From the IMG/VR virus record IMGVR_UViG_3300036768_000756, positions 1 through 64,000 of that record: DNA of 64,000 nt; one strand, given 5' to 3'. The stretch comes from a virus. The position numbers were made by a program, and so were the translations under genes. Under the pieces are notes generated by a model. It saw only the letters and a list, made by a program, of their open reading frames with translations, was not told the DNA's origin and searched no databases. Positions 1-52,146 of this stretch are shown here, in pieces; position 1 is the first letter of the stretch; every line of letters starts with the position of its first letter.

Positions 1-445
1 CATTCCGGTTTGAATATTCTCTCGTAGTAGGATGTCGGGGGGATAAAGGAAGGGGGTTATAGGGGGGAACCATCAAGGGGGGTCCAGCGCACAAAATTTC
101 TGTTGACGGTTCCCTGTGTACAAATGTACACACCCCCTGTGTACGTTTGTACACACCCCCTGTGTACGTTTGTACACACCCCCCCTGTGTACGTTTGTAC
201 ACAGGGGGCGGGCCGTCCGCGCCGGAACTGAGCCCCCACGAGCCGTGTTCCTGTTTGGCTATCAGCCCGCTGGTTGCCAGCCGCTTGAGTGCGGAATGGA
301 TGCGCGTCCGACTGGTGCGGAACATGCGGGCAAGCTGGCTCGTAGAGCTTGGTCCGCCAACCGCCAGCGCCAGTGCGACCGCGATGTCTGCCCGCGACAT
401 GCCTCGCGATGCTAGGCTCTGAATCAGCCCCTGGATGTCTGTCAC
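1..445 (-). CDS. Replication initiator, N-terminal part (cut by left window edge)
   Basis: This is the homologue of the initiator at 33136-34428. It starts at GTG 445, 8 bases after an AGGAGG site, and its start overlaps the stop of the upstream gene (GTGA). The first 75 residues or so form a winged-helix-like region of the same layout as the right copy ('SLASRGMSRADIAVALALA'), but the recognition part is clearly diverged. The next stretch is encoded by the TGTGTAC iterons and reads as a VYKRTQGG-like linker. After it the frame rejoins the right copy at STEILCAGPP, which confirms that the frame is open through the repeats. The C-terminal replication domain lies beyond the window. The role is inferred from the right copy and the iterons: origin binding and replisome recruitment. 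Confidence 0.75.
   Translation of the reverse strand, partial: MTDIQGLIQSLASRGMSRADIAVALALAVGGPSSTSQLARMFRTSRTRIHSALKRLATSGLIAKQEHGSWGLSSGADGPPPVYKRTQGGCVQTYTGGVYKRTQGVCTFVHREPSTEILCAGPPLMVPPYNPLPLSPRHPTTREYSNRN
87..108. other. Conserved A/T-rich element beside the iterons
   Basis: The 22 bases from 87 to 108 (core CACAAAATTTCTGTTGAC) are identical at 34028-34049 in the right unit, although the adjacent iterons are completely different. It is the most A/T-rich short stretch near either iteron array, so it could be the unwinding element of the origin. It also encodes STEILCAG of the initiator, so protein conservation could explain part of the identity. The origin role is inference. Confidence 0.4.
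115..203. repeat. Origin iterons, TGTGTAC family (4 copies)
   Basis: Four 18-bp units of the form TGTGTAC-NNNN-GTACACA lie at 115-132, 138-155, 161-178 and 186-203. Spacing is 23, 23 and 25 bp, separated by C-tracts. Each unit is itself an inverted repeat, as expected for a dimeric or two-headed binding protein. They lie inside the initiator coding sequence, as the lambda origin iterons lie inside gene O. The right unit has an unrelated iteron family at the same place. Not a CRISPR array: units are palindromic and spacers are only 5-7 bp. Confidence 0.8.
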
Positions 446-3855: not shown

Positions 3856-4187
3856 CGCGATGTGATCTCTGCTGGGCGGGCCTCGGGCTCTGGGTGCACC
3901 TATACACCGACCCAGAGCACGCCAACGTGCTCGATGACATGACGCTCAGCCTCGCAACCCTCGTGGTGCACGCCGTCTGCGGCTCGATGGTGCCCCCATG
4001 GGGCAAGGATCCGGCTAAGCTGCTCGACGAGATCCACGGCATGGCCCACCGCATGGTGGAGCGGTATGCGCGACTGCTGCTGGAGCGCGCGGAGATCGCA
4101 TGCCGCGAGGCGCGCGAGGCGGGCGACCAGGCGCGAGCGCGGGGAATCCAAACCAACATCGATCTCTTGCAGCTAGCGAGGGAGTGA
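3852..4187 (+). CDS. Small CxxC helical protein (paralogue of 5125-5484)
   Basis: A 111-residue protein starting at ATG 3852 (overlapping the upstream stop as ATGA). The N-terminus has RCDLCW, then a helical body with VVHAVCGSMV and DEIHGMAHRMV. The gene two positions downstream (5125-5484) has the same plan (QCKLCA, MAVCSWIV, AIHGDMHQVM), so the two look like ancient duplicates. Function unknown; metal binding through the CxxC is possible. The right partner is 37802-38137. Confidence 0.7.
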   Translation: MTRCDLCWAGLGLWVHLYTDPEHANVLDDMTLSLATLVVHAVCGSMVPPWGKDPAKLLDEIHGMAHRMVERYARLLLERAEIACREAREAGDQARARGIQTNIDLLQLARE

Positions 4188-4197
4188 GGAGGGGGAG

Positions 4198-5112
4198 ATG
4201 CGATCGGTAGTGCGATGGTATGGCGGCAAAGGGCGCATGATCGCAAAGCTCCTGCGCCATGTTCCGCAAGGGGGGCGACCGTACTGCGAGCCCTACATGG
4301 GAGGGGCGTCGCTGTTTTTTGCCCGAAAGCCGGCGGCCGTCGAAGTATTGAATGACTTGAACGGTGATCTCGTGAATCTGTTCCGCTGCTTACAGGATCC
4401 GAAGACGTTTCCGGAGCTTCAGCATCGGATCCGGTACACGCTCTATTCGCGGGCCGAGTTTGGCCGGGCGATTGACATTTTAAACGGCGATGAGACCGAC
4501 CCCGTGCTGCGCGCATGGGCCATGTTTGTTGCGGCTAATCAGAGTTTTGCCGGAAAATATGATGTCATCGGGAATTGGGGGAAGGCGATTCACGAAAGCG
4601 CTAGGGGCATTGCCGCAGAGAACAACAAGTGGATCATGAGGCTGTCCATGCTGGAGGATTGGCATCGCCGGCTCCTGATGGTGCAGATTGATAACCGCGA
4701 TGCGCTTGAGGTGATCCGATACTACGACAACCTAGATGCCGTGTTTTACCTTGACCCGCCCCATCATCCAGATACGTGGGATGTGAGCCAGGGCTATGAT
4801 CACGTGGCGGACGCGAGTCACCACGAGCAGTTGGTTGAGCTTATTCTGCAATGTAAGGGCACTGTCGTGCTGTCTGGGTACGACCATCCGATATATCAGT
4901 CGCTCATAGAGAACGGCTGGACAGTGACGACATACGAAACTGTCGCCTATGCCGCCGGGCGCGTTCGGGGTTCCGGTCTCCAAGGTGCCGGCGCCGCAAT
5001 GGCAAAGGTTCCGCGCATCGAATGTATCTGGTCAAACCCGCGCGCACAGGAGATGCTCGCGGCGCAGCGTGGCATGTTGCCACTCGGAGAAATGGGGAAC
5101 GGTGAGAATTGA
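4198..5112 (+). CDS. Dam-type (D12 class) DNA adenine-N6 methyltransferase
   Basis: A 304-residue protein with the D12-class layout: an N-terminal WYGGKG (residues 8-13), the S-adenosylmethionine loop EPYMGGASLFF, LNDLNGDLVNLFR, catalytic motif IV as LDPPH, and the C-terminal SGYDHPIYQSL and ECIWSNP signatures of phage enzymes. Motif IV is normally DPPY; here the aromatic Tyr is His. The gene is present only in the left unit: the right unit goes straight from 38137 to 38152. Its base composition is less GC-rich and its codons are unlike its neighbours (many -t and -a endings), so it looks like a late insertion. It probably methylates adenines in phage DNA to escape host restriction; the target site is unknown. 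Confidence 0.9.
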   Translation: MRSVVRWYGGKGRMIAKLLRHVPQGGRPYCEPYMGGASLFFARKPAAVEVLNDLNGDLVNLFRCLQDPKTFPELQHRIRYTLYSRAEFGRAIDILNGDETDPVLRAWAMFVAANQSFAGKYDVIGNWGKAIHESARGIAAENNKWIMRLSMLEDWHRRLLMVQIDNRDALEVIRYYDNLDAVFYLDPPHHPDTWDVSQGYDHVADASHHEQLVELILQCKGTVVLSGYDHPIYQSLIENGWTVTTYETVAYAAGRVRGSGLQGAGAAMAKVPRIECIWSNPRAQEMLAAQRGMLPLGEMGNGEN

Positions 5113-6290: not shown

Positions 6291-7226
6291 CTACTGCACC
6301 ACTACCGTCGGCATCGGCGCCACGCGGATCTGCCTGGGTGGTGGCAGCTCGACCCGACGCGGCCCGGGCACGATGATGATCGCGCGCGGTGTGCCCTCAG
6401 CCGGTGGCTTCGTGGGCGTGATCGTGCGCGTCGGTGTGTGTGTCGGCGGGTTCGTCGGCGTAAACGTCGGAGTGCGAGTCGGAGTCGCGGTGGGCGTATC
6501 TGTCGGAGTCCGAGTCGGTGTGTCAGTCGGTATGGGCGTCGGCGTATGAGTGGGCGTGAACGTGGGCGTGGCGGTCGGAGTCTCCGTCGGAGTATGTGCC
6601 GGCGTCTCGGTGACCGTCGGTGTATGGGTCACCGTCGGCGTGTGAGTGGGCGTGTGTGTCACCGTTGGAGTGTGTGTCGGCGTGTTTGTGACGGTCGGAG
6701 TCTGCGTCGGCGTGTGGGTCACCGTCGGAGTGTGGGTCACGGTGGGCGTGTGAGTTGGGGTGTTGGTGATGGTCGGCGTGTTGGTTCGAGTCGGCGTGTT
6801 GGTCGGCGTCGGAGTGCGAGTCGGCGTGTTCGTGATCGTGGGCGTCCTGGTTGGCGTGTTGGTGATGGTCGGCGTGTTCGTGACCGTCGGAGTGTGGGTT
6901 GGTGTCGGAGTGTGTGTCGGCGTGTCCGTCGGTGTATGGGTCACCGTCGGTGTCTCAGTAGGCGTCCTAGTCACCGTCGGCGTATGCGTTGCGGTGGCGG
7001 TATGCGTGGGTGTCGGAGTGCGAGTTGGGGTCTCCGTCGGCGTGCTGGTCGGACTCTCTGTCGGCGTTGACGTAGGCGTCGGCGTGGGCGTGCTCGTCGG
7101 TGTTGGCGTCGGCACGCTAAACCATAACGGGCGAGGATACGCGCCGACTGTACTCGGGCGCACGACGAATACATAAGTCGCTAGTGCGACAACGACACAG
7201 ATCAGTATCCCGACTGCCCGCTTCAA
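6291..7226 (-). CDS. Membrane-anchored Thr-Pro repeat (stalk-like) protein
   Basis: A 311-residue protein starting at TTG 7226, 7 bases after AGGAG. The right unit uses the same TTG, and the neighbouring ATG is out of frame. Residues 5-22 are a hydrophobic signal/anchor segment after a basic start (MKR). Residues from about 40 to 262 are tandem TPT-x units ([13 protein letters not shown]), a rigid extended and probably glycosylatable stalk. The conserved tail includes [11 protein letters not shown] and ends in PMPTVVVQ. It is last in the late operon, with a probable surface or host-facing role. Such TPT stalks are known in exported bacterial proteins, and the gene may derive from a host. Confidence 0.75.
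6408..7115. repeat. Degenerate tandem DNA repeats encoding TPT units (left)
   Basis: Imperfect 12-24 bp repeats built from GTCGGCGTGTGNGTC on the plus strand encode the Thr-Pro stalk of the 6291-7226 gene. Repeat number differs from the right unit (39950-40797), giving a protein 51 residues shorter. Long open frames on the other strands (VGVSVGV-type) are by-products. Confidence 0.85.
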
Positions 7227-16700: not shown

Positions 16701-17548
16701 GTCGGATCGAGCACCACGGTCGCCGGAGTCGCCTGCTCGATGCCGTAGTAGCCGCGTGAGAGCTCGGCGCCGATGCCCGTGATGCGCTGAATCCGCGTGC
16801 GCGGCACGTTAGCCCCTAGGGCCAGCAGCCGGTCGTCTGGCTCGTCTGTGGTCCAGGCCTGCTCGCTGGTGTCTCCCCTCGCGACGTGGCACACGTAGAC
16901 TATGCGGCTCTCCCGTGTGGCGCGCGGTGAGCGGCCCACGCGCGGGTGCAGATAGAGTGCGGGTATGGCCGTGCTGGTGTATGTCCCCATGCTGCCCACG
17001 ATGTCGCGCTCCACGCCACCACCGCCGCGGAGTGGCATATACGACGTGGGCCCATAGTCGAGTGCCGTGCGGCCCTGAGAGAGCTCGATGCAATCCGCAT
17101 CGGAGAGAGCCCGCTGCCACAAAGCGACCTCGGCGACCACGCCGTCCAGCGTCTCCGTCCCGTTTGCGTGCCGCCCGATCCACATCGCGCCCGTCTGCGT
17201 GCCCATGGCGCCGACAGTCGCCTCCACGTATCGCACACCGTCATAGAATCCCGTCGCCGTGCTGCCCTGGCGTCGCATCACGACCCATCCGCCATACGCC
17301 CGATGGTATGGTTCTGCCAACTGCACGAGATAGACGTCATAGCTAGGCACGACGAGCCGGAAGCCAGTTGGGTCCACGCGCACCTGCCACGAGACGGTCG
17401 TGGCACTGCCTGCGTAGAGCACGGTCTGTGCCGCTGACCCGGTCGAGTCCCACCGGCACCAAAATGCGATGGTCCACTCGCTGAGCCCCGCCAGAGGATG
17501 CTGGCCACTGCTGACCAGGTAGCGGATGCTGCTGCAGATGACCGCCAT
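13754..17548 (-). CDS. Large tail-tip protein with two LamG domains
   Basis: A 1,264-residue protein. Residues 1-175 form a concanavalin/LamG fold (EWTIAFWCRWDSTG, ALWQRALSDADCIEL). Residues 350-500 form a second LamG (AWTVLMWVRPVGSQ, SVADVAIIPRELSDIDM). The middle 500-1050 has hub-like beta segments, and the last 200 residues resemble a carbohydrate-binding module (SGGFPAGWWYNGATATVTV). Position directly after tape measure and distal tail protein matches the central tip/fibre gene of siphoviruses. It probably binds host surface glycans. Its first 170 residues are identical in the right unit, and the rest differs at scattered sites. Confidence 0.75.
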   Translation of the reverse strand: MAVICSSIRYLVSSGQHPLAGLSEWTIAFWCRWDSTGSAAQTVLYAGSATTVSWQVRVDPTGFRLVVPSYDVYLVQLAEPYHRAYGGWVVMRRQGSTATGFYDGVRYVEATVGAMGTQTGAMWIGRHANGTETLDGVVAEVALWQRALSDADCIELSQGRTALDYGPTSYMPLRGGGGVERDIVGSMGTYTSTAIPALYLHPRVGRSPRATRESRIVYVCHVARGDTSEQAWTTDEPDDRLLALGANVPRTRIQRITGIGAELSRGYYGIEQATPATVVLDPTDRRTVGELIASYRPTMWWRGHETSGDSDVTRNYVCSASSISHDDTWPHLSERAREAWRGSGASGSYVQVTGGPAPSLTGAWTVLMWVRPVGSQTQKYLLQAGSWAIIYGYVSGQVEFFAASYTGSDPRPNSQIAIPSDTWTMIAYTYDSTTGRWRSWRDGVLQMDVTRSFTLGAGSLPAYIMAAASNLNNFNGSVADVAIIPRELSDIDMRELSRASLGKYSGAGRALIGRTVDVYVLDSGGALARVPRMVITSVADGRDGTAVTLSDWLTYRAQDPIPADAVWPWRYPLSSQPGAAIPMPYGDAIYALSHIGESRTLDGGTDFALADARPAGSSTPDVLAVRDVWWDIAPQQAGLERASSWASLTVVSITASDTIVVSGDQRGLVVPGTTLRWMSSTDTMWRYGQVTAVQLSGSDTQVTVSGIAFSGTTASGVVKTILATPAANTIAGSPGDIVSIGSGGARVVILRASGGYATEVALVTPGRGYTAGSTYGGVTVLEVGPGCEVSGDAVVLDGADYRTGLTIVRLPGQARGAVMARVQRARASYAQAIHDVLAHSTMGLGLQSSDQAASILAARPSRRIDGALGASLQRQSAQFVLEELAKTTCAAIRDLGDRHATWEAERTRKHTLLLGPDAGGYDEASGRPEIGPAPARLRVRFGPLIRARGTSDEPVLDQLDEYPGDLALQLSDTGPELVVTAPLLMDRQTVDTMAYRIAAHELADRDRLAIRSGWGPELWHVRPHDVVRVADSTGRHSGDWIVRGLQIGDETEVELAPWRANMAYVQTGTPQATLQPGVLDLAPAIADAPRATSNRFRNSDFSQLRSGGFPAGWWYNGATATVTVDQNCVGDRYVTLSATTTASFFDTPTLGDTDAAARLHVARPGWTFLWAAWLSTTQRTSVVVRQMDSAGNIIGTDLQVALRPTAERNGLGWLRYYATARVTAQAVAYVQVWLRIQTGQSVSIDAPALYRVDSRAVGVPPWSR

Positions 17549-18450
17549 CTCTAGCGCACCTCCCGCAGTACGACGCGCCCGACCTCGATGAGCGTGGACG
17601 CGCGGTGCTGGATGCGGACCGGCTCCACGAGCCGGCAGACGTACGGCGTCGTGACTGGTACCACGAGCACTGGGTTCGGCCGCGCCTGCCCCAGTGCCTG
17701 CCAGATCGAAAGCTGCGACGCGGGGAGCGCACCGCCGCCCATCTCCAGAATGACCGCCTGCCGCGACGTGAGACGAGGCCTAAGCCCGTCGATCGTGCGC
17801 GCCGAGTCAATCGTGTAGCTGAGCGTGGGTGAGCCGTACGCCGCCTCTAGGCGTGTGCGCGCGAAGCCCATGGCACCGATGTACAGCATCCCAGAGCCAT
17901 CGTCCGTCGTACTCGTCATTCCCCGGATCCGCCAGTAGCGACGCTGCACGCCGCCGCTGCCATAATCGACAAAGAGTTTCCGCCGTCCGGAGTACGCATC
18001 CACAGCCGCTGTATACGTGGTCGCGGTCCACGTTGTGGCGTCGGTCGAGTAGGCCACCTCGATCGACGAGAGATTCGGGGCATCGATCCACACGCCAAAC
18101 ACCGTCAGGTTGCTGCCCAGGTCGATCTGGATGCCTGCCCCATTCGCGCTCGTGGCTCGCCATCCGACATATGGACGATCGAGATCAAGCACGTCCCGAA
18201 TGTCATAGCCGCCCGCAGTAGTGCCAACAGCAATGAGCGCGATCGGCGCATGCCAGTCGGTGATGACGATCATGCCGTGGCCCTCCCCGTGCGGTGCCCT
18301 GGCCGTCGCACAGGCAGCTGCGCCCGCAGGGCGGCGGTATTCTCCCTGAGCGCGGCGGTATTCTCGGCCTGCGCGCGGATCTGCTCCTCGAAGCGCTGCT
18401 GCTCGATCGCGGCCTGCTCACGGAGCACACGCTCGGATTCGCGGAGCCCT
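17033..18450. repeat. Near-identical block shared by both units (left copy)
   Basis: 1,418 bp matching 50729-52146 with one difference, at 18330 (g here, c at 52026). It covers the N-terminus of the tip protein, the whole distal-tail gene and the C-terminus of the tape measure. The flanks resume normal divergence at once (17032 and 18451 are mismatches). Lines were compared by eye. Confidence 0.9.
17551..18273 (-). CDS. Distal-tail-like protein with discoidin-type domain
   Basis: A 240-residue protein. Residues 30-140 resemble an F5/8 type C (discoidin) jelly roll (GWRATSANGAGIQIDLGSN, VAYSTDATTWTAT, RRYWRIRGM). The C-terminal 90 residues are beta-rich. Position between tape measure and tip protein matches the distal tail protein of siphoviruses. 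Start ATG 18273 overlaps the tape-measure stop by 4 bases. The whole gene is identical to 51247-51969, unlike almost every other pair in the window. Confidence 0.7.
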   Translation of the reverse strand: MIVITDWHAPIALIAVGTTAGGYDIRDVLDLDRPYVGWRATSANGAGIQIDLGSNLTVFGVWIDAPNLSSIEVAYSTDATTWTATTYTAAVDAYSGRRKLFVDYGSGGVQRRYWRIRGMTSTTDDGSGMLYIGAMGFARTRLEAAYGSPTLSYTIDSARTIDGLRPRLTSRQAVILEMGGGALPASQLSIWQALGQARPNPVLVVPVTTPYVCRLVEPVRIQHRASTLIEVGRVVLREVR

Positions 18451-21400
18451 ACCAGCGCCTGCTGCTCCAAGACGCGCCGCTGCATGCTGCCCGCCGCAAA
18501 CTGCGAGGCGAGCTGCAAGAGCTCCGTGCTACGCTGCTCCACGATGCGCGCGCGGTCGATGGCCGCCACACCGGAGGCCTGACGGAGTGCTGCGAGCGCC
18601 TGCTGCTGCTCCTGTAGGAGCGTCGCCCGCTGGGCTGCCGGGCTCATGCGTGCAAGCTCGATCTGCCGAATGCGCTCCCGCTGGCGGTCGGCCTCAGCCA
18701 ATAATGCCTGGGCGCGTGCTGGGCCTTGAAGCGCATCGAGTACGGCCCGGAGTTGCGGCGGGATCAACCGCAAGCCGCGCGCAAAATCGAACAGTGCTTG
18801 TGTCGCGGAGCGCACTGCCTGCGCGTCGCCTGCTTGAATCGCGGCGAACACGTCGCCCACGACGCGCCGCATCTGGTCGGTAATGCCAGCGAGCGAGACG
18901 TCCGCGATGGCATCTGTGAGCACCTGCCCGATCCGCTCCGCAAATGCCGTCTGCGCGTCGCGGAGCTGGTCATCTGGGACAATGGCGAGTGCTCGGATGG
19001 CGCCAGCAAGCCCTCCCGCTGCCCGGGCGCCGGCCTGGGATATCTGTTCGAGCTGCTGAATGAACCGCCGGAAATCGAGGCTCTGGCTCCCCGCATCGAG
19101 CTGTCGCATCGCGATGCGCGCGACATCGAGCCCTGGCGGCAGCTCGTCGCCAAACAACCGCGCAATCTCCGCGATCGCGAGTTCTAGCTGCGAGGCGGAC
19201 AATTGGCCGCGTTCGAACTGGTCATGCAGCGCAAGGAGCGCCCCGCGGAAATCGATACCAGCCGCCTGCGCAGCACGAAGCAGCCACTCCTCTGCTTCGC
19301 GCGCACCACGCCCGAGGGCGAGGGTCATGTTGGCAATCGTGTTGCCCAATGCCTCGACATCCGGGAGACCCAGCATGCGGCCAAATACGAGCCCAGGCGC
19401 CTGTACTGCCGCCTGAACTGCGCGGATGTCCTCTTGCGTGCGCCGTCTAATGGCGGCGACGAATCCAGTATCCCCGGGATATTGCGCAAGCAGCCGAAAT
19501 GCCTCGCGACCCGCAGTCGTGTCCGCCAATCGCGGCCCCTCGATAATGCGGCCGGACTCGTCTCGGAATACGATCCGACCGGGAAGCCCGGCCTTGCCGA
19601 ACAGCTTCTCCAGCGCCCGCAGCGCGCGATCCTCAGCTGTCGGCAGCGACACGCCAAACAGAGACGTTATGCCACCAATTAGCGCTCCGATTGCCGCGCC
19701 AATCGCAGTCCCAATGCCGGGTATGATGCTACCTATGGCCGCGCCCGCTGCAGCTCCGGCAGCGACGCTGAGGGCGGTCCGACCCGCATCGAACTGCCCA
19801 AAGCGCGTTGTGCCGGGTCCCGTCGCCATCATGATCGGACCCGCGATCAGAGCAGCGAGGCCTGCGCCACCCGCTGCCGCTCCAAGCGTGGAGAGCGAGA
19901 TCCCGAGGGTGGAGGCGAGACTGCTTGCGCCCGTGATCGTGGCGAGGGTGCCGCCCGTGATGGCCCCGAGCCCGAGTGTACCGGCAAGCGCTGCGAGCAC
20001 CGGTGCAGCAGACGCCGCGCCGGACACCATGCCTGCCAGAGCCTGGGCGATCCCACCCTGCACGAGAGCGCCGGTGATCCCAGCGCCGAGCCGTGTGAGC
20101 ACGCCCGCGCCCTGGGCCTTGAGTGTGCGCGACTGCTCGGCGAGCGCGCTGCCGACAATGTCGGACACCGACACTAGCAGGCTATCTCGGAGCACGAGGC
20201 CAATGTCTCCCACACCGCCGCCTGCGATGCGCGCCGTAACCGCGCGAGAGAACGAACCACCGATGATCTCGACCACGTCCACCGCTGCTGCGCGCGATCG
20301 ATCTAGGCCTTCTAGCGTCCGGTCCACGCGCTCGCGGAGAATGTCCATCGTGGCGTCGATTTGCTCGATGCGTGCGGCCCATGCTTCAACCATGCGCGGA
20401 TCGAAGACCGTCGGCATCACCTGGGCGAGCTGGATCGCCGTCTCTAGCCGCTCTCGCTCTGCCTGTAGCAACGACTCCTCGACGCGGAGCTGCTGCTCCA
20501 TTGCTTCGCGCACCGCGGCCATTGCCGCGCGCTGCTCCTCAGGGCCCATTGTTTGCGCGCGTTCGAGAAGCGCCCGGGCGCGCTCGACGTCCGCCGCCGC
20601 GATCTCACGTGCGGTCTCAGCTCGGATCCGGTCGGCCTGCGAGATGACGTCAGTGACCTGCTCCCACTGGATTCGCAAGTCCTCTGCGGCCTTCGCCGCA
20701 TCGGTCGATCGCACGCGGATGCCCGCAAGCGCGTCCGCAAACCGGCTCGTGTCCTGCGCCGCCTCTGCTGCTACTGCGCCGGCGCGCTGGAAGCTGGCCG
20801 CAACCGTCTCCGGCACTGGTGACATGGGCGCGACGGGCGTGAATGGCGGTGGCTCTATCGGGCGCGGCGCTTGCTGCATGCTGCCGGGCAGGAACAATGC
20901 CAACGGCGCGCTGATGCCGAGACCGCTGAGCCCGCCCACGAGCGCGCCAGCTGGGCCGCCGATCAGGCCGCCAAGCACTGCGCCGGACAACGCGCCCGTC
21001 CCAACTGCCGCCAGCGCGCCAAATGCCGGGCTCGACACGACCGACGCGATCCGTTCGACAGCGACCATGACCCTGGCGAGCCCGGTCGCCAGGTTCTCTG
21101 CGGCCACAACCGCACGTTCGAGGCCGGCCACAATGCTCTGCGGATCCTGCGCGATCTGTGCAGCTACGCCGCGCACCGCGTCCGCCACCCGCCCGAGCGT
21201 GCGCGCAAGCACCTCGTCGATACGGCCACGCTCGCCCGTCACCGCCCGCGAGATAGCGTCCGCCAAGCCGAAGAACGCATCGCGGATCTGTGCGAGCGCG
21301 CCCGTGACCGTTGTGGATCGTGTTACGATGGCACCGATCTGCTCCAGTGCTTCGGCGATGGCGCCGCGCACTTGTGCCATCCGGCCTCCGAACGTGGAGG

Positions 21401-22037
21401 CCTCCGCTTCGGCCTGCCCCATCGTACGCCGCCACGCGTCGACGACCAGTGCCCACTTCTCTTGCGCGCTCGCACCCTCGTCGGCGCGGAGCCTCAGCGT
21501 GCGGAGTAGACCATCGAGCCTACCGCCAAGAGCACCGCCCACGAGCTCGGCCATCGCATCAATGGACATGTCGTAGGCCGATGCCAAGTCCAACACCATG
21601 CGCGTGAGTGGCTCGATCTGCTGCCTCTGCGCACCGAATTGGATCAGGAGCCGCTGGACATTGTTGATGGCCTCATCGCCGTGGATGGTTAGACGTTGGT
21701 AGGCCGCTGCCTGCTCCTGGAGCTGCCGCAGATAGTCCGCGCTCGCCTGGCCCGTCGCGCGCAACGTTGCAGCGAGCCGCGCCGTAGCGCGGTCCTGCTC
21801 GTCGGCTGCGGCAATCGTGGCCCTAAGCGCACTCGTCACCACACCAGAGACCCGCCCGAGTAGCTCCCAGGCCTGGTTTGCAACGATGACGCCGCGCGCA
21901 AGCCGGCTAAACGACCCCTCGGCTGCGCTCGTCGTGCCAGAGAGCCGCTCGATGGCCTGGCGCGTGCTCTCGACGACACGCACTGCGCCGTCGTCTTCGA
22001 CCCGCAGTCGAATCGAGATATCAGAGATCGGCGGCAT
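18270..22037 (-). CDS. Tape measure protein
   Basis: A 1,255-residue protein starting at ATG 22037 by homology with the right copy and a GGAG site 8 bases upstream (an ATG at 22055 is also open). It has long helical stretches with heptads, Ala/Gly-rich hydrophobic segments around residues 640-760 (APVLAALAGTLGLGAITGG, GLAALIAGPIMMATG) and a Gln/Arg-rich coiled-coil C-terminus. This is typical of the protein that sets tail length and crosses the membrane during injection. At about 0.15 nm per residue the tail would be near 190 nm. It follows the G/GT chaperones, as in most siphoviruses. Confidence 0.92.
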   Translation of the reverse strand: MPPISDISIRLRVEDDGAVRVVESTRQAIERLSGTTSAAEGSFSRLARGVIVANQAWELLGRVSGVVTSALRATIAAADEQDRATARLAATLRATGQASADYLRQLQEQAAAYQRLTIHGDEAINNVQRLLIQFGAQRQQIEPLTRMVLDLASAYDMSIDAMAELVGGALGGRLDGLLRTLRLRADEGASAQEKWALVVDAWRRTMGQAEAEASTFGGRMAQVRGAIAEALEQIGAIVTRSTTVTGALAQIRDAFFGLADAISRAVTGERGRIDEVLARTLGRVADAVRGVAAQIAQDPQSIVAGLERAVVAAENLATGLARVMVAVERIASVVSSPAFGALAAVGTGALSGAVLGGLIGGPAGALVGGLSGLGISAPLALFLPGSMQQAPRPIEPPPFTPVAPMSPVPETVAASFQRAGAVAAEAAQDTSRFADALAGIRVRSTDAAKAAEDLRIQWEQVTDVISQADRIRAETAREIAAADVERARALLERAQTMGPEEQRAAMAAVREAMEQQLRVEESLLQAERERLETAIQLAQVMPTVFDPRMVEAWAARIEQIDATMDILRERVDRTLEGLDRSRAAAVDVVEIIGGSFSRAVTARIAGGGVGDIGLVLRDSLLVSVSDIVGSALAEQSRTLKAQGAGVLTRLGAGITGALVQGGIAQALAGMVSGAASAAPVLAALAGTLGLGAITGGTLATITGASSLASTLGISLSTLGAAAGGAGLAALIAGPIMMATGPGTTRFGQFDAGRTALSVAAGAAAGAAIGSIIPGIGTAIGAAIGALIGGITSLFGVSLPTAEDRALRALEKLFGKAGLPGRIVFRDESGRIIEGPRLADTTAGREAFRLLAQYPGDTGFVAAIRRRTQEDIRAVQAAVQAPGLVFGRMLGLPDVEALGNTIANMTLALGRGAREAEEWLLRAAQAAGIDFRGALLALHDQFERGQLSASQLELAIAEIARLFGDELPPGLDVARIAMRQLDAGSQSLDFRRFIQQLEQISQAGARAAGGLAGAIRALAIVPDDQLRDAQTAFAERIGQVLTDAIADVSLAGITDQMRRVVGDVFAAIQAGDAQAVRSATQALFDFARGLRLIPPQLRAVLDALQGPARAQALLAEADRQRERIRQIELARMSPAAQRATLLQEQQQALAALRQASGVAAIDRARIVEQRSTELLQLASQFAAGSMQRRVLEQQALVGLRESERVLREQAAIEQQRFEEQIRAQAENTAALRENTAALRAQLPVRRPGHRTGRATA

Positions 22038-22829
22038 CTTGGTCGTCTCCGTCAAGTAGGGCCAATTCCCTCACCGAGTACACGCGCCCCGAACTGCGCA
22101 CGCCGGCCACCGCGTGCATGAGCTCGATCACATCGGCGTGCGAGTAGACGCGATCGAGCACAATCATTGGTCGCGTCATGGCGCGGAGCTCAGCGAGCAG
22201 CGCCCCGGTCTCCACGCGCCAGTACTCGCGCGTGATGCCCGAGTCGTCGCGCCACGCCTTACCGCGCAAGCATCGGGATGCGAGTTCAGCTAATGCCCAT
22301 GCTTCGGCAGGATACCGCTCTCGCCAGCACCCGCCCTCGCACGCCTCGTGCGCGCAGCAATCCTCACACGATGCCGGGAGTAGCTGCGATCGATGTGCCG
22401 CTATGAGTCGGCAGGCGAGCTCGGGGAGCCGAACTTTTTTTTCTCCCACTCCTCCCGGAGCTCCTCCAGGCTGCGCACAACTGCATCTTGCGCGGACGGC
22501 ACGGCCAATAGGAGCTCGATGAGCTGTTCCTGCCACGTGGGCGGCACATCGTCGAGGTCTGCGAGATCCCTGAGCATCTGTGGATCGCACCCCGAGAAGT
22601 CGACGACCACTGGCGGCGTGGCAATGTCCCGATCCGGCACGCCCGAGACCAGTGCCTGGATGTAGGCTCGCAGGATGTCGCCCTGTCGCGCGCGCACGCG
22701 ATCGAGATACATCGCGATCCGACGTCCGGCATGCACCGTGATACGCCGCACCGTGACGCGCCACCCGGCGCATGGCGGCGGCAGCTCCACGACGCGCGTC
22801 TCCTGGGCCTCCAGTTTCTCGTACCGCAT
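22021..22829 (-). CDS. Tail assembly chaperone GT fusion by -1 frameshift
   Basis: The G frame (from 22829) meets eight A on the coding strand (22442-22435, GAG-AAAAAAAA-G). Slipping back one base changes EKKKFGSP to EKKVRLPEL and opens a frame to 22021, giving about 269 residues. This is the lambda gpG/gpGT arrangement directly before a tape measure. The T part has a Cys cluster (ASCEDCCAHEACEGGCW) that could bind metal, unusual for this family. The run and both frames are conserved at 56155-56162. Confidence 0.8.
22401..22829 (-). CDS. Tail assembly chaperone G
   Basis: A 142-residue protein starting at ATG 22829, which overlaps the upstream stop (TGATG). Beta-rich N-terminus (RVVELPPPCAGWRVTVRRI), then a helical part ending EELREEWEKKKFGS. 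Small size, position before the tape measure and the slippery A-run identify it as the G-type chaperone that coats the tape measure during tail assembly. Confidence 0.78.
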   Translation of the reverse strand: MRYEKLEAQETRVVELPPPCAGWRVTVRRITVHAGRRIAMYLDRVRARQGDILRAYIQALVSGVPDRDIATPPVVVDFSGCDPQMLRDLADLDDVPPTWQEQLIELLLAVPSAQDAVVRSLEELREEWEKKKFGSPSSPADS

Positions 22830-23008
22830 CACGGCGTATCGATGCGCACCCAGACGGGCGAGATGCCCTCGTCCGAGGTGCACCGGATGCAGTCGTACGC
22901 ATCACCATGCACGACCTCGGTGACCCGATAATAGAGCTCGCCATCCGGGTCATACTCCACCCCGCCGCCGGGCAGGCTGCGGAACCGTACAATGTCACCG
23001 ACCTGCAT
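22829..23008 (-). CDS. Small conserved protein of the tail operon
   Basis: A 59-residue protein after GAGGTGAGCC, easily missed because of its size. It begins MQVGDIVRFRSLPGGG and reads as a small beta barrel (ELYYRVTEVVHGDAYDCIRC, then GISPVWVRIDTP). Its stop overlaps the G chaperone start. The right partner is 56555-56731 with the same plan. Function unknown; the DIVRFRS...YRVTEV pattern resembles small SH3-like proteins. Confidence 0.75.
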   Translation of the reverse strand: MQVGDIVRFRSLPGGGVEYDPDGELYYRVTEVVHGDAYDCIRCTSDEGISPVWVRIDTP

Positions 23009-23011
23009 GGC

Positions 23012-23251
23012 TCACCTCTTGGCGGCCTTCGCGGCCTGGTCTACGACCTCTCGTACGCCGATGGCCGCAAGCCCACTCAGTGCTGCGCTCGTGGTGGTGT
23101 CGGCCTGGCCGCTTAGCGCGGCACCAATGGCACCGATGACCGTGGCCAGGATCGGCACGAGCGGCTTCGGGATCAGCGGCATCACTCGCCTCACGAGGCT
23201 CGTGAGGATCGCCGCAGCTGCAGGAATCGCAATGCGAAGAATGTCATCCAT
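23012..23251 (-). CDS. Small membrane protein, holin-like
   Basis: A 79-residue protein after AGGAGGTGCCCC. Two hydrophobic segments (about 5-20 LRIAIPAAAAILTSLV and 32-48 VPILATVIGAIGAALS) are separated by RRVMPLIPKP; the C-terminus is charged. Size and topology fit a small two-segment holin, though it lies between tube and chaperone genes, away from the endolysin. The right partner is 56735-56971. It may instead be a virion membrane protein. Confidence 0.6.
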   Translation of the reverse strand: MDDILRIAIPAAAAILTSLVRRVMPLIPKPLVPILATVIGAIGAALSGQADTTTSAALSGLAAIGVREVVDQAAKAAKR

Positions 23252-23264
23252 GGGGCACCTCCTA

Positions 23265-24533
23265 CTACTCGACCCAGATTGCGTACTCAGACTCGATGCC
23301 GCCAGTGCAGCGGCCTTGGATCGTCTGCATGATGATGTTCTCGCGCTCCGAGTATTCCATTGTGATCGCCATGCGCGGGAAATGGAAGATCCATTTGTTC
23401 CCGGTCACTGAGCCGACATCGATCCGCATGCAGAATTTCGTGCCGGCGAACATTTCGCTCAGCATCGTGGCGTCCGGGATCGCACGGTTAGGTGCTATCG
23501 TATCACGGTCCACCGCCATCGTCGCGCGCACGACCGGGTTGCGGCCCGTGATGATCGGACGCAGCGCACCCTGCGAGACAGTGGCATCGTTCACGATCTG
23601 GCGCTCGTTCCCGCTGTCGAAGCTGAATTCTCGGAGTACGATGGTTTGGCCGCCAGACGTGGCACCGTCGAACGAGCCGCCGCCGGCTTGGCCGTCGCCC
23701 GTAAGTGCACCAAAGCCCGTCGAGTCGTAGGCGATAGTAAACTGCGTGGCCGTAGGCGCACCGGTCACGAGGTGGCACCCGTTCACGACCTGCCACGATC
23801 CGGTCAATCCAGTGATTGCCACGAGATGCCCGGTCGACAGACCGTGCGCCGCATCGGTCGTGAACGTGGTCGTGGTGCCGGCCGTAGCGGATGTGAGCCG
23901 CACCGGTGTCGTGATGCGAGCGATGCGGAGCGTGATGTTCCTGAATGCGACTGGACGGATGATCCCGCCGGTGTAGCCGGTGAAGCTACCCTCGTCCTGC
24001 GAGTCCCAGACACCCGCGCCATCGAAGGTCCCCTCCAGGAATCCCTCAGGCCGGCCAGAGATTGTCAGCGACCCGACGACGTCGCGCGCGAACACCCTCG
24101 CCTTGCCATTCTTCGCACCGACCGTTGGCGGGTGGCATCTTGCTGGCGTAGTGGCTCCGTCGATTAGCTCTGTCGGTGTCGCAGGGCGATATATCACCCG
24201 TGCCGTCTGCGTGTGCCGCGCCATGCCAGCGGCAATGAGCATTGCGTCGATCGCGCTCGCGCCATTGCCGGTCACCGAGCCCGCAGTGCCCGAGCCGAAC
24301 ACGGGGAATCGAGCCCGCACGTCCGCGAGCTGCGGACCCACGACCGCATCGATTGGAGACAGCGACCCGCGGATCACGCTGATGGGAATGAGCTGCGGCC
24401 GGGGCTGGATGACGACCGGCTCCAAGAGCGGGAGATCATCGGTGCCGCCAGTGCCGTAGGCCGGGGCGCCTGGGTTGGATTGTAGTTTTGCGACTGCCTG
24501 AACAGATTGGCTGATGGTGACCTGCTTCGCCAT
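23265..24533 (-). CDS. Major tail tube protein
   Basis: A 422-residue beta-rich protein upstream of the chaperones and after the tail-completion genes, the place of the tube subunit. It carries an inserted domain at about 205-290 (TTFTTDAAHGLSTGHLVAI, TQFTIAYDSTGF), a fold common in phage structural proteins that read 'aHGLstGd.V.ItG'. The C-terminus (FPRMAITMEYSERENIIMQT) is conserved. It polymerises around the tape measure to form the tail. Large for a tube protein because of the insertion. Confidence 0.75.
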   Translation of the reverse strand: MAKQVTISQSVQAVAKLQSNPGAPAYGTGGTDDLPLLEPVVIQPRPQLIPISVIRGSLSPIDAVVGPQLADVRARFPVFGSGTAGSVTGNGASAIDAMLIAAGMARHTQTARVIYRPATPTELIDGATTPARCHPPTVGAKNGKARVFARDVVGSLTISGRPEGFLEGTFDGAGVWDSQDEGSFTGYTGGIIRPVAFRNITLRIARITTPVRLTSATAGTTTTFTTDAAHGLSTGHLVAITGLTGSWQVVNGCHLVTGAPTATQFTIAYDSTGFGALTGDGQAGGGSFDGATSGGQTIVLREFSFDSGNERQIVNDATVSQGALRPIITGRNPVVRATMAVDRDTIAPNRAIPDATMLSEMFAGTKFCMRIDVGSVTGNKWIFHFPRMAITMEYSERENIIMQTIQGRCTGGIESEYAIWVE

Positions 24534-24535
24534 GA

Positions 24536-26026: not shown

Positions 26027-26040
26027 GTCGTGCCCCGATA

Positions 26041-27886: not shown

Positions 27887-27906
27887 GATAGATATCCTCG
27901 CGGCGC

Positions 27907-27935
27907 GATATTGCACGACAAGTGTGCGTTGTCAA
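27907..27935 (-). promoter_or_regulatory. Internal promoter for protease and capsid genes
   Basis: TTGACA (27935-27930), 17 bases, then AATATC (27912-27907). The -35 overlaps the TGA of the upstream minor head gene. The right unit keeps TTGACA-17-GATATC at 61652-61624 although the spacer sequence differs. It would boost capsid transcription inside the late operon. Confidence 0.5.
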
Positions 27936-28705: not shown

Positions 28706-28706
28706 G

Positions 28707-29057: not shown

Positions 29058-29060
29058 GGC

Positions 29061-32535: not shown

Positions 32536-32541
32536 AATGCG

Positions 32542-32624: not shown

Positions 32625-33161
32625 CTAGTTTCCCGGCTCATCATCCGGCATCGGCCGCCCGAGCCGGTACGCAAGCCGCTGCAGGGCACCCAGTATCTCC
32701 TGGCGATCCTCGTCGCTCGGGCCGGGTGGCGGAAGCTGCGGAGTGCTCGGCTCCAGCTCGACCCATTCGCACCGGATGCGGCCCTCGACCAGGGCCTCGG
32801 CGACTAGGCGGTCGTAGACGCGCCGGAATGTGCGGTAGAGCTCGTCATCACGGAGACGTGTGCCCTCGGCCAGGCGCATCGCCTGGAGGGCGAGTGATGG
32901 CATGCGCTTCCCGCGCCGCGCCAGCTCCCAGGCCTCCTCTGGGCCGGGCCAAGCATCGTCGAGCGCGCGCACGATCGCGATCCAGGACACGCGCTCTCCT
33001 CGCGCTGCGATGCGGGTGATGGCATTGCGCAATTCGAGCGGTCCGAGCCCGTACGGCGCGAGTTGGGCGCCGATGAGAACCGCGGTCTGGCGCTCGACCT
33101 GGATGCCGTGGAACGATGCCGCGGCCATGATTGCGTCAGCCAGCGTGTCTACCGTTGCCAT
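32625..33161 (-). CDS. Replication partner protein, helicase-loader position
   Basis: A 178-residue protein starting at ATG 33161 after AGGAGGTCACA. Sequence includes GPLELRNAITRIAARGE, DAWPGPEEAWELARRG and FRRVYDRLVAEALVEG, a pattern I associate with proteins paired with HTH initiators in phages and integrative elements. It overlaps the initiator by 26 bases. By order it corresponds to lambda P, so helicase loading is a reasonable inference, but no loader motif is visible. The left-unit homologue is off the window. Confidence 0.55.
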   Translation of the reverse strand: MATVDTLADAIMAAASFHGIQVERQTAVLIGAQLAPYGLGPLELRNAITRIAARGERVSWIAIVRALDDAWPGPEEAWELARRGKRMPSLALQAMRLAEGTRLRDDELYRTFRRVYDRLVAEALVEGRIRCEWVELEPSTPQLPPPGPSDEDRQEILGALQRLAYRLGRPMPDDEPGN

Positions 33162-34428
33162 TGTGACCTCCTGTCTGCTTCGGTTGCGGGCCAAAGACAA
33201 GCCCGTGCTGGATGGCCCATTCAATCCCCTCCACGATCTCGCGCCGTTGCTGTTCCCATTCCCTGGCAAATGCGGGCTTCCAATCCCGCATCTCGACCAG
33301 CAGCACCTCGCAGTCCCTGAGCAGCAGCGAGAGCGGATGCCGGGCCCGCACGTGGATGCCACCAGCGCGCTCGACGTACCAGCGGGCGAGCCGCGGCGCG
33401 TCCTCGATGCCGACGCGCTTGACCAGCTGCAGGCACATCGAGTTGGTCCGGGCGTTTCGCGGCGGGCGGGAGCCGTATCGCTGCTCATAGGCCGATGCGT
33501 ACGCCTCCCAGGTCTCCGAGCCTGGGGCCCCCTGGGGTTGCGCAGGTGGGTGGTGTATTTCCGGGTTGACAGCCGGCAGATTTTCGTGACACGCGCTAGA
33601 CGCGCAAGAATCGGTTATAAGCGACGTTTGGGGCCTGCTGGCTACCATGGTACTGGTCGGGGTGCGTCTTAGCTTCCTGGGCGAATTCTGGCGTTTTGGC
33701 GGCGTGGTTGGTTGTGCGGCCGTTTCTGGTGATGCATGGGTAGCTAGGTGATCAGTGTCTGTGGTGGCAGTAGGATCACTCGTGCTGCGAGCCCTAGCTA
33801 CCCTGGGATCGTGATCCGAGTTGGGCTGAGTTTCGCTGCGCGAAAAATTGTGGCGCGTCCCGCTGAGCTTTAGCTCAGCGGGAACATTCAAACCTACTAG
33901 CGATAGATTATTCTCGCTATTGCGGCTTGTTAGATCTATCGTAGTAGGATGTTGGGGGTGAGAGAGATTAGGAAGAGATAGGGGGTTATAGGGGGGAAGA
34001 GGAACCTCAAGAGAGAGCGGGGGGCCGGCGCACAAAATTTCTGTTGACGATACATGGGGGTCATTTGCCCCCCATGTGGGGGTCATTTGCCCCCCGTGTG
34101 GGTGGCTTTTGCCCCCCATATGGGGGGCATTTGCCCCCGGGGCTTTTGCCCCCCATATGGGGGTCATTTGCCCCCCATCCCAGTTCGTGGCGTGGGTGGC
34201 ATTCGCCCCCCATGCGAGCGCCCACGTTGTACCAGCCTGCTCGATTGCGCCGATCTCTTTTAGCCGTGCAATGCTGCGGCGGATGCGCTTACGGTCCGCA
34301 CGGAACAATCGCCTAAGCCGATACACCGACATGGGCCCGCCCAGTGCCAATGCCAGCGCAACGGCAATGTCCGCCCGCGACATGCCTCGCGATGCGAGGC
34401 CCCGAATGAGTCCCATGATCTCTCTCAT
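33136..34428 (-). CDS. Replication initiator with internal origin
   Basis: A 430-residue protein. Residues 1-75 are a winged-helix-like DNA-binding domain (GLASRGMSRADIAVALALAL, RKRIRRSIARLKEIGAIEQ). Residues 76-127 are encoded by the iterons (GGQMTPIWGAK-type repeats). A long Ser/Thr/Pro linker follows, then a C-terminal domain (WEAYASAYEQRYGSRPPRNA, HPLSLLLRDCEVLL) of a type seen in phage and mobile-element replication proteins. It should bind the iterons at its own gene and recruit the host helicase through the next protein. ATG 34428 follows AGGAGGTGGATC and overlaps the upstream stop (ATGA). Confidence 0.8.
   Translation of the reverse strand: MREIMGLIRGLASRGMSRADIAVALALALGGPMSVYRLRRLFRADRKRIRRSIARLKEIGAIEQAGTTWALAWGANATHATNWDGGQMTPIWGAKAPGANAPHMGGKSHPHGGQMTPTWGANDPHVSSTEILCAGPPLSLEVPLPPYNPLSLPNLSHPQHPTTIDLTSRNSENNLSLVGLNVPAELKLSGTRHNFSRSETQPNSDHDPRVARARSTSDPTATTDTDHLATHASPETAAQPTTPPKRQNSPRKLRRTPTSTMVASRPQTSLITDSCASSACHENLPAVNPEIHHPPAQPQGAPGSETWEAYASAYEQRYGSRPPRNARTNSMCLQLVKRVGIEDAPRLARWYVERAGGIHVRARHPLSLLLRDCEVLLVEMRDWKPAFAREWEQQRREIVEGIEWAIQHGLVFGPQPKQTGGHNGNGRHAG
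34028..34049. other. Conserved A/T-rich element beside the iterons (right)
   Basis: Identical over 22 bases to 87-108 and at the same distance from the iteron array, while the iterons differ completely. Candidate DNA-unwinding element; also coding. Confidence 0.4.
34054..34213. repeat. Origin iterons, CATTTGCCCCCC family (about 7 copies)
   Basis: Units of ATGGGGGTCATTTGCCCCCCAT and variants, with cores at 34062, 34084, 34106, 34129, 34143, 34165 and 34200. The main period is 22 bp, about two helical turns. Each unit has GGGGG/CCCCC arms. They lie in frame in the initiator gene. No resemblance to the TGTGTAC iterons of the left unit. Confidence 0.8.
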
Positions 34429-35069
34429 GATCCACCTCCTAGTGTGTGCTCAATATCACGGAGAGCGATCGCAACCAACAGCCCGACCTTGCCCAGCACC
34501 TCCGGCGCCCTGCGATGCCTGAGTCGCCGCGGCTGCGCCCTCTCGCGCCAGACAAGCCACCGCCACTCACCGCAACCAAGCCGATTGGCCGCGGCGATCA
34601 ACCACCCGGGTCGGACACGTTCGGCCGCCTGGTTGAGCCAATAACTCGGGACAGACGCACTGGGCGCCCATCGTGTCCGTCGCATCGCGATATATCGCTG
34701 GGCCGGTTCAACCATCCACGGGTACTCGCTGCGCACATCGGCCAGATGCCGCGCATGTTCCGCGGTGATGCTGCGGATGGTGGCCTCGAACTCCTCTGGC
34801 TGCATCCGCATGCCTGCGGCCATGGCCTGCATGGCCCAAGGATCCCATTGGTCAATCTCCGCGGCATCGACGTAGCCGAGGGCGGCATCGAGCAGCGCGG
34901 TGTGTGCCATAGCATGCCAGAGCTCCTCGTACTGCGACCTGTGGCTAGGCCGTATGGGCAGGATGTCGCCCTCATGATGCTGATATCGCGGCCCGATGCG
35001 AGCCGGCTTGGGTCCGAACTTGCCTAACCGGAGACCGTAGATGCGTCGTGGCTTCGGTTTGCCTGTCAT
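34425..35069 (-). CDS. Conserved protein of the replication operon, function unknown (right)
   Basis: A 214-residue partner of 442-1089, roughly three quarters identical by eye; the middle (YEELWHAMAHTALLDAALGY) is almost unchanged and the C-terminal third most diverged. The start is taken at ATG 35069 by alignment; an upstream in-frame ATG is at 35087. No Shine-Dalgarno. TGA overlaps the initiator ATG. Confidence 0.75.
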   Translation of the reverse strand: MTGKPKPRRIYGLRLGKFGPKPARIGPRYQHHEGDILPIRPSHRSQYEELWHAMAHTALLDAALGYVDAAEIDQWDPWAMQAMAAGMRMQPEEFEATIRSITAEHARHLADVRSEYPWMVEPAQRYIAMRRTRWAPSASVPSYWLNQAAERVRPGWLIAAANRLGCGEWRWLVWRERAQPRRLRHRRAPEVLGKVGLLVAIALRDIEHTLGGGS

Positions 35070-35077
35070 GCCGTCGC

Positions 35078-35106
35078 GCAATGCCATGATTCGCCGCGAT
35101 GGTCAA
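35078..35106 (-). promoter_or_regulatory. Minus-strand promoter of the replication operon (right)
   Basis: TTGACC (35106-35101), 17 bases, CATTGC (35083-35078). Predicted start is about 35071, 2 bases before ATG 35069, the same geometry as the left unit. Confidence 0.4.
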
Positions 35107-50400: not shown

Positions 50401-51244
50401 AGTCGAGCACCACGGTCGCCGGAGTCGCCTGCTCGAGGCCATAGTAGCCGCGCGAGAGCTCTGCGCCGATGCCCGTGATCCGCTGGATGCGCGTGCGCGG
50501 CACGTTAGCCGATAGCGTCAGCAGCCGGTCGTCGGGCTCGTCCGTGGTCCAAGCCTGCTCGCTCGTGTCTCCACGCGCCACGTGGCACACGTAGACGACA
50601 CGGCTCTCTCGTGTTGCGCGCGGTGATCGGCCTACGCGCGGGTGCAGGTGGAGTGCTGGTGTGGCAGTGCTGGTATACGTCCCCATGCTGCCGACGATGT
50701 CACGCTCCACGCCACCACCGCCGCGGAATGGCATATACGACGTGGGCCCATAGTCGAGTGCCGTGCGGCCCTGAGAGAGCTCGATGCAATCCGCATCGGA
50801 GAGAGCCCGCTGCCACAAAGCGACCTCGGCGACCACGCCGTCCAGCGTCTCCGTCCCGTTTGCGTGCCGCCCGATCCACATCGCGCCCGTCTGCGTGCCC
50901 ATGGCGCCGACAGTCGCCTCCACGTATCGCACACCGTCATAGAATCCCGTCGCCGTGCTGCCCTGGCGTCGCATCACGACCCATCCGCCATACGCCCGAT
51001 GGTATGGTTCTGCCAACTGCACGAGATAGACGTCATAGCTAGGCACGACGAGCCGGAAGCCAGTTGGGTCCACGCGCACCTGCCACGAGACGGTCGTGGC
51101 ACTGCCTGCGTAGAGCACGGTCTGTGCCGCTGACCCGGTCGAGTCCCACCGGCACCAAAATGCGATGGTCCACTCGCTGAGCCCCGCCAGAGGATGCTGG
51201 CCACTGCTGACCAGGTAGCGGATGCTGCTGCAGATGACCGCCAT
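47450..51244 (-). CDS. Large tail-tip protein with LamG domains (right)
   Basis: A 1,264-residue partner of 13754-17548. Residues 1-171 are identical because they lie in the shared block; beyond them substitutions are scattered, densest in the C-terminal carbohydrate-binding-like region. Confidence 0.75.
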   Translation of the reverse strand: MAVICSSIRYLVSSGQHPLAGLSEWTIAFWCRWDSTGSAAQTVLYAGSATTVSWQVRVDPTGFRLVVPSYDVYLVQLAEPYHRAYGGWVVMRRQGSTATGFYDGVRYVEATVGAMGTQTGAMWIGRHANGTETLDGVVAEVALWQRALSDADCIELSQGRTALDYGPTSYMPFRGGGGVERDIVGSMGTYTSTATPALHLHPRVGRSPRATRESRVVYVCHVARGDTSEQAWTTDEPDDRLLTLSANVPRTRIQRITGIGAELSRGYYGLEQATPATVVLDSTDRRTVGELIASYRPMMWWRGHEVSGDADVTRNYVCSTSSISYDDTWPHLSERAREAWRGNGASGSYVQVTGGPAPSLAGAWTVLMWVRPIGSQVQKYLLNAGSWAIIYGYVSGQVEFYAASYTGTDPRPNSQIAIPSDAWTMIAYTYEPTTGRWRSWREGVVQMDVTRSFTLGAGSLPAYIMAAASSLNNFNGSVADVAIIPRELSDIDMRELWRASLGQYSGAGRALIGRTVDVYVLDSGGALARVPRMVVTSVADGRDGTAVTLSDWLTYRAQDPIPADAVWPWRYPLSSQPGAAIPMPYGDAIYALPHIGESRTLDGGTDFALADARPAGSSTPDFLAVRDVWWDIAPQQAGLERASSWASLAVVSITASDTIVVSGDQRGLVVPGMTLRWMSSTDTMWRYGQVTAVQLSGSDTQVSVSGISFAGTTASGIIKSILATPAANTVAGSPGDIVSVGSGGARVAILRASGGYATEVALVTPGRGYTAGSTYGGVTVLEVGPGCEVSGDAVVLDGADYRTGLTIVRLPGQARGAVMARVQRARASYAQAIHDVLAHSTMGLGLQSSDQAASMLAARPSRRIDGALGASLQRQSAQLVLEELAKVTCAAIRDLGDRHATWEAERTRRHTLLLGPDAGGYDDASGRPEIGPAPARLRVRFGPLIRARGTSDETVLDQLDEYPGDLSLQLSDSGPELVVTAPLLLDRQTVDTMAYRIAAHELADRDRLAIRSGWGPELWHLRPHDVVRVADSTGRHSGDWIVRALQIGDETEVELAPWRSNMAYVQTGMPQATLQPGVIDLAPAIADAPRATSNRFRNADFSQLRSSGFPLGWWYNGATASVTVDQNCVGDRYVTLTATATASFFDTPTLGDTDAAARLHVARPGWTFLWAAWLSTTQRTSVVVRQMDSAGNIIGTDLQIALRPTAERNGLGWLRYYATARVTAQAVAYVQVWLRIQTGQSVSIDAPALYRVDSRTIGVPPWSR

Positions 51245-52146
51245 CTCTAGCGCACCTCCCGCAGTACGACGCGCCCGACCTCGATGAGCGTGGACGCGCG
51301 GTGCTGGATGCGGACCGGCTCCACGAGCCGGCAGACGTACGGCGTCGTGACTGGTACCACGAGCACTGGGTTCGGCCGCGCCTGCCCCAGTGCCTGCCAG
51401 ATCGAAAGCTGCGACGCGGGGAGCGCACCGCCGCCCATCTCCAGAATGACCGCCTGCCGCGACGTGAGACGAGGCCTAAGCCCGTCGATCGTGCGCGCCG
51501 AGTCAATCGTGTAGCTGAGCGTGGGTGAGCCGTACGCCGCCTCTAGGCGTGTGCGCGCGAAGCCCATGGCACCGATGTACAGCATCCCAGAGCCATCGTC
51601 CGTCGTACTCGTCATTCCCCGGATCCGCCAGTAGCGACGCTGCACGCCGCCGCTGCCATAATCGACAAAGAGTTTCCGCCGTCCGGAGTACGCATCCACA
51701 GCCGCTGTATACGTGGTCGCGGTCCACGTTGTGGCGTCGGTCGAGTAGGCCACCTCGATCGACGAGAGATTCGGGGCATCGATCCACACGCCAAACACCG
51801 TCAGGTTGCTGCCCAGGTCGATCTGGATGCCTGCCCCATTCGCGCTCGTGGCTCGCCATCCGACATATGGACGATCGAGATCAAGCACGTCCCGAATGTC
51901 ATAGCCGCCCGCAGTAGTGCCAACAGCAATGAGCGCGATCGGCGCATGCCAGTCGGTGATGACGATCATGCCGTGGCCCTCCCCGTGCGGTGCCCTGGCC
52001 GTCGCACAGGCAGCTGCGCCCGCAGCGCGGCGGTATTCTCCCTGAGCGCGGCGGTATTCTCGGCCTGCGCGCGGATCTGCTCCTCGAAGCGCTGCTGCTC
52101 GATCGCGGCCTGCTCACGGAGCACACGCTCGGATTCGCGGAGCCCT
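50729..52146. repeat. Near-identical block shared by both units (right copy)
   Basis: Matches 17033-18450 with one mismatch (52026). First flanking mismatches are at 50728 and 52147. Confidence 0.9.
51247..51969 (-). CDS. Distal-tail-like discoidin protein (right)
   Basis: 240 residues, identical to 17551-18273 at protein and DNA level, inside the shared block. Confidence 0.7.
   Translation of the reverse strand: MIVITDWHAPIALIAVGTTAGGYDIRDVLDLDRPYVGWRATSANGAGIQIDLGSNLTVFGVWIDAPNLSSIEVAYSTDATTWTATTYTAAVDAYSGRRKLFVDYGSGGVQRRYWRIRGMTSTTDDGSGMLYIGAMGFARTRLEAAYGSPTLSYTIDSARTIDGLRPRLTSRQAVILEMGGGALPASQLSIWQALGQARPNPVLVVPVTTPYVCRLVEPVRIQHRASTLIEVGRVVLREVR

Follow-up and report, generated by a model that had tools for sequence, protein, structure and literature searches.

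We report that the two genome units in this virus record very probably each carry a lambda-like replication origin embedded in the initiator's own gene, and that the DNA-binding N-terminal domain of this initiator is exchanged between phages together with its iterons as a specificity cassette. The 64,000-bp window analyzed spans positions 1-64000 of a virus record 68,186 bp long, in which two collinear units, ~85% identical to each other, are herein called X (left) and Y (right). In the mechanism we propose, the N-terminal winged helix of an O-like initiator would bind palindromic iterons that its own gene contains a few codons further on, with N-domain dimers sitting on the iterons and unwinding taking place at an adjoining pyrimidine-skewed, A/T-rich tract; the C-terminal domain, presumably together with the protein encoded by the adjacent downstream gene, would then recruit the host helicase at this tract. 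The exchanged block extends from the start codon (~codon 30 for the X/Y pair) to just past the last iteron, with conserved DNA on both sides, leaving the recruiting half of the initiator and the remaining genome in place. As key and lock lie within ~400 bp between conserved borders, a single recombination block could replace specificity while recruitment is undisturbed.

Each unit has one such gene on the minus strand, in which an iteron-coded linker joins a winged-helix N-terminal domain to a C-terminal domain. The Y initiator is complete (33136..34428, minus strand; 430 aa) and O-like; homologues match the O-like families phrog_391, phrog_11527, and phrog_9773 strongly (E-values to 1e-48), with Y itself matching weakly (phrog_11527, 4e-11; phrog_391, 0.0034). 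Its N-terminal domain (34204..34428, minus strand) is predicted to be a MarR-type winged helix, the structural model (pLDDT 88) having the MotA N-terminal domain and MarR proteins as best folds (Foldseek E ~4e-3), and its C-terminal domain (33199..33531, minus strand), common to the whole O-like family, was modelled as all-helical (pLDDT 92), with no match to PDB folds. The X gene is cut by the record start: its N-terminal half, i.e., winged helix plus iteron-coded linker, occupies 2..445 (minus strand; MarR_2, 32.9 bits against a cut-off of 27), and its C-terminal half is assigned, through a 41-bp overlap of the record ends (window 1-41, record 68146-68186; one T/C mismatch), to record positions 67397-68185 (L005:4397-5185), beyond the window. 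The Pfam Phage_rep_O N-terminal domain (PF04492) of lambda O proper was not detected and MarR_2 or HTH_36 is present instead; the initiator is therefore kept apart from lambda O proper. The gene immediately preceding the Y initiator (34425..35087, minus strand; X copy at 442-1119) borders the cassette with its end and the ribosome-binding site, and downstream, in the lambda P position, lies another (32625..33161, minus strand) that is a P analogue by position only. In F116-like phages, the initiator sits between cro and the next replication-type gene, the order in F116-like H66 being cI-cro-initiator-next gene-ninG. Queries with the X/Y N-terminal domain returned no relatives from IMG/VR or phage records, and those with the upstream gene and terminase added only the two nearest kin.

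The original prediction placed four iterons in the left unit and about seven in the right, at the same position of the same gene, and mapping of the repeats bore out both coordinates and counts. The X array (115..203) consists of four exact copies of the 18-bp palindrome TGTGTAC-AAAC-GTACACA (TGTGTACN4GTACACA at 115-132, 138-155, 161-178, and 186-203, spaced by 23, 23, and 25 bp). The Y array (34062..34211) consists of seven copies of CATTTGCCCCCC type, with up to 1 mismatch and mostly 22-bp spacing, the core of which reads GGGGGCAAATGACCCCC on the coding strand. None of 10 letter shuffles of the X region, and none of 10 of the Y region, reached the respective array score. Both arrays are situated in tandem within the gene, between the DNA-binding winged helix and the recruiting C-terminal domain, as in an origin of the ori-lambda type. 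All iteron types in close kin are palindromes, and those of X and Y have the centre CAAAYG in common but differ in their arms; a DNA search of viral contigs for X-type double iterons found none. The N-terminus had also been described as diverged, which holds for the recognition helix, wing, and iterons; the first ~30 residues are nearly identical between X and Y, and the left border for this pair falls inside the N-domain, near residue 30.

To the other side of the iterons, a 22-bp element (87..108 in X; 34028..34049 in Y), identical in the two units, forms the right border of the cassette. This conserved sequence was correctly anticipated; however, the STEILCA peptide and the element are one and the same DNA as opposed to two findings, and the element itself is only ~55% A/T, the truly A/T-rich zone beginning ~20 bp further on. 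There, in X, Y, and a relative from another metagenome (L012), a tract of 60-65% A/T (genome mean, 35%) and 80-85% pyrimidines adjoins the iterons on their C-terminal side, in the manner of ori-lambda. The candidate unwinding region in X (1..86) is pyrimidine-skewed and A/T-enriched and runs on across the record end, and that in Y (33881..34021) is pyrimidine-skewed, then A/T-rich (to 65%).

Whether N-domain and iteron types co-vary among homologues was the check proposed at the outset, and the answer is affirmative. Homologues were collected via the C-terminal domain alone, such that neither N-domain nor iterons were selected for, and 59 loci exceeded the iteron score threshold used (40 after dereplication); these mostly contain 4-8 in-gene repeats spaced by 21-24 bp, at a constant position within the gene, and in some other homologues an array was not detectable by this repeat-scoring method. 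N-domain identity was measured upstream of the first iteron, and iterons were compared for similarity at their best offset. Across the 59 loci, the two correlate with r = 0.86. In partial Mantel tests, the N-domain correlates with the iterons given the C-domain at 0.80 (p<0.0002 from 5,000 permutations, which is indicative as the loci are not independent), whereas the C-domain given the N-domain yields 0.01 (p = 0.39); the dereplicated loci give 0.80 and -0.06, respectively. For N-domain pairs <30% identical, iterons are dissimilar in 98%, and for pairs at least 70% identical, they are near-identical in 72% and dissimilar in 6%. The DNA-binding domain co-varies with the iterons and the C-domain does not, as expected of an exchangeable module of the PLE RepA kind. 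Two outliers (L025 and L026) arose from an insertion before the iterons, and local alignment of the whole N-terminal part resolved both. The insertion is a side observation in its own right: these O-like initiators (L025:2191-3384, L026:1990-3396) have, between the winged helix and the iterons, a stretch of ~90 additional residues that resembles GIY-YIG (HYVYRI...FYIGLR), matches phrog_314 'homing endonuclease' in L025 (E 7.6e-7), and recalls the ICP1 origin-directed nuclease, but within the initiator itself.

Direct swaps carry more weight as evidence than the permutation test. Between L051/L057 and L053/L060, C-domains are 98-100% identical, N-domains ~49%, and iterons different; between L023 and L024, the C-domains are 95% identical and the N-domains 18%, again with different iterons. 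Conversely, LASTA and Parlo (pair L014/L019) have the same iterons and N-domains 91% identical on C-domains of 40% identity. The same block is evident in two Klebsiella phage isolates, LASTA and SopranoGao: sequence identity is 92% as far as 9 nt beyond the start codon, alignment then fails throughout the iterons and the ~40 nt that follow them, and identity recovers to ~80% downstream. The predicted exchange of initiator specificity and origin as one cassette is thus upheld insofar as N-domain and iterons travel together, in the co-variation as in the swaps; for X and Y specifically, the N-terminus was only partly exchanged.

Four iteron types occur among close kin, namely those of X, Y, Y' (contig 3300035183_000683, hereafter contig 683), and L012. 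Contig 683 matches Y without a single difference between 18203 and 34011, then has two substitutions, the element (34025-34048), and unrelated iterons GGGTGTTAAAACCCACC at 22-bp spacing. Because the 15,809-bp flank is identical between Y and Y' while their iterons are completely different, the iteron exchange must be very recent. As the contig ends before the N-domain, Y' is known from its iterons alone, and a search for their N-terminal partner matched contig 683 itself and nothing else. L012, most of which shows ~85% identity to X as well as to Y, carries the fourth iteron type, GTGTCACCNGTGACAC, with a different N-domain; relative to X, it is identical at 40/40 bases at the ribosome-binding site, ~50% identical from start codon through iterons, and 92-96% identical directly after, in the tract past the element.

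Both predicted units are present in the record, though probably as two genomes joined in assembly. A 1,297-bp stretch occurs at 17033..18329 and, without mismatch, at 50729..52025, the runner-up exact match between the units being 120 bp. Contig 683 corresponds to record 18203-34011 without mismatch, the final 9,466 bp of contig 588 (from the same metagenome, 3300035183) are identical to record 58714-68179, and both contigs have their first base precisely 127 bp short of where the 1,297-bp stretch ends (the start of contig 588 being computed from contig coordinates, with sequence compared over its last 9,466 bp only). Such starts are the behaviour of a 127-mer assembly graph at an unresolved repeat, and the record is thus likely a chimera of two genomes. 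The simplest and most likely reading is a figure-of-eight of Y (~33.7 kb) and X (~34.4 kb), joined by the assembler via the 1,297-bp stretch, which is the likely joint; a genuine 68-kb double genome was judged less likely, and the physical linkage of the units probably arose in assembly. A distance of ~16 kb separates the joint from the cassettes, which are unaffected by it. Encoded in the repeated stretch are a protein resembling F5/8 type C (17551-18273) and the first part of another with a lectin domain (Laminin_G_3). For 1,297 identical bases between otherwise 85% identical genomes, a recent exchange of this adhesion region is possible, and the identity is compatible with recent X-Y recombination, which would entail co-infection. 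The occurrence of X-like and Y-like contigs (588 and 683) in one metagenome indicates a shared habitat only, not a shared cell. The record ends and two related contigs (L010 end, L009 end) all break at or beside the cassette; together with the T/C difference in the end overlap, this suggests that the population sampled harbours several cassette alleles. Elsewhere, imperfect internal repeats of 65-72% identity lie in a coding region of both units (6412-7113 and 40041-40796), and a D12-class adenine methyltransferase gene (Pfam; 4198-5109) in the X early region has little counterpart there in Y, the X/Y identity profile showing a gap at 4001-5000.

A rival account has the iterons and N-domain changing stepwise in place by mutation, through co-evolution without recombination. 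In its favour, X and Y keep the first ~30 residues and the iteron centre beside differing arms and recognition helix; these common residues mean that part of the difference could be in-place divergence. As an overall account this is nonetheless unlikely, as Y and Y' have unrelated iterons despite 15.8 kb of identical sequence, the borders between LASTA and SopranoGao and between X and L012 are abrupt, with >90% identity right to the start codon, and one N-domain-iteron pair is found on C-domains just 40% identical. An assembly artefact, whereby cassettes became attached to genomes of phages other than their own, would draw on the very likely chimeric nature of the record, with two contigs starting at k-mer length (127 bp) from the end of the repeat, and on the breaks of the record ends and contig 588 beside the cassette. 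Set against this are the distance of the joint from the cassettes, the open, in-frame state of both initiator genes, the common sequence of only ~36 bp at the cassette border, insufficient for joining by 127-mers, and the presence of the same pattern in isolated, fully sequenced phages, all of which render such an artefact highly improbable.

The repeats might also be read as operators for a winged-helix protein that represses the gene or operon encoding it, or as a partition site, and not as an origin at all. Consistent with this, the X N-domain scores as MarR_2, several homologues are annotated 'transcriptional regulator', and cumulative GC skew takes no turn at the iterons in either genome, following gene orientation instead. 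Yet the families matched, by the C-terminal part and by the full-length protein, are O-like ones of replication initiation, the in-gene sites are followed by a strand-asymmetric A/T-rich tract like that of ori-lambda (PMC4488673), and the gene order in F116-like phages resembles that around lambda O; we consider the regulatory or partition reading very unlikely. The skew, the weak phrog_391 match of Y, the lack of a PDB counterpart for the C-domain model, and the homologues in which no array was detected nevertheless count against the preferred explanation. Under the preferred explanation of an exchanged origin-specificity cassette, the N-domain would bind these iterons, the iteron site would be the replication origin, and exchange would alter which phages use, or are titrated by, each other's origin. 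By analogy with lambda and PLE biology, each N-domain may bind its own array only, and X and Y may replicate independently in one cell with plasmid-like compatibility, as originally proposed.

Ultimately, the classical type specificity of the lambda origin becomes a widespread and measurable pattern in wild phages, in which the exchanged unit is a ~400-bp block with fixed borders, in one case without substitution across a 15.8-kb flank. These natural matched pairs can serve both to study iteron choice by a winged helix and to ask whether origin type governs the coexistence of related phages. We tentatively suggest that origin specificities are kept as a polymorphism under selection, one replication type replacing another in genomes that are identical elsewhere, in the way of a serotype or incompatibility group, with ectopic origins, satellites, origin-directed nucleases, and interference by co-infecting kin as the possible selecting forces. 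The principle is already known from lambda/P22 hybrids and PLE satellites; new, as far as the literature was searched, are the phage group, the four iteron types, the very recent exchange beside an identical 15.8-kb flank, and the family-wide measurement.

Among known systems, the closest in design is phage lambda (with type-specific relatives such as P22 18/12), in which ori-lambda contains four 18-19-bp iterons within the initiator gene, bound by the N-terminal half of O and adjoined by an A/T-rich strand-asymmetric tract (PMC4488673, PMC3349717); the lambda iteron, ATCCCTCAAAACGAGGGA (PMC7466680), is built on the same plan as TGTGTACAAACGTACACA. Lambda growth is halted by ectopic copies of ori (PMC4488673), and ori-lambda plasmids have no effect on a lambda phage whose replication region comes from P22 (PMC3349717). 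In contrast to lambda O, the N-domain here is MarR-like or HTH_36, and several specificities exist inside one tight genome group; moreover, lambda/P22 hybrids have O-P swapped whole, whereas exchange here is confined to N-domain and iterons. In PLE satellites of Vibrio cholerae, the RepA_N domain co-varies with the ori and the C-domain is conserved through repeated swaps, with cognate pairing shown by hybrids and an origin-directed nuclease as the selecting agent (PMC8263062). Our initiators similarly combine a DNA-binding domain that co-varies with the iterons and a conserved C-terminal domain; however, the PLE origin is intergenic with a known selecting agent, while the origin here would be in the gene. 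Eru replication-region types of Stx phages (PMC8951638) also provide close relatives with alternative replication regions, but replace whole gene sets as opposed to a sub-gene specificity block. Finally, in extrachromosomal mycobacteriophage prophages with RepA (PMC7157519), phage origins act as compatibility groups in tests, though that RepA is of plasmid type, with no iterons found, and functions in prophage maintenance and not in lytic replication.
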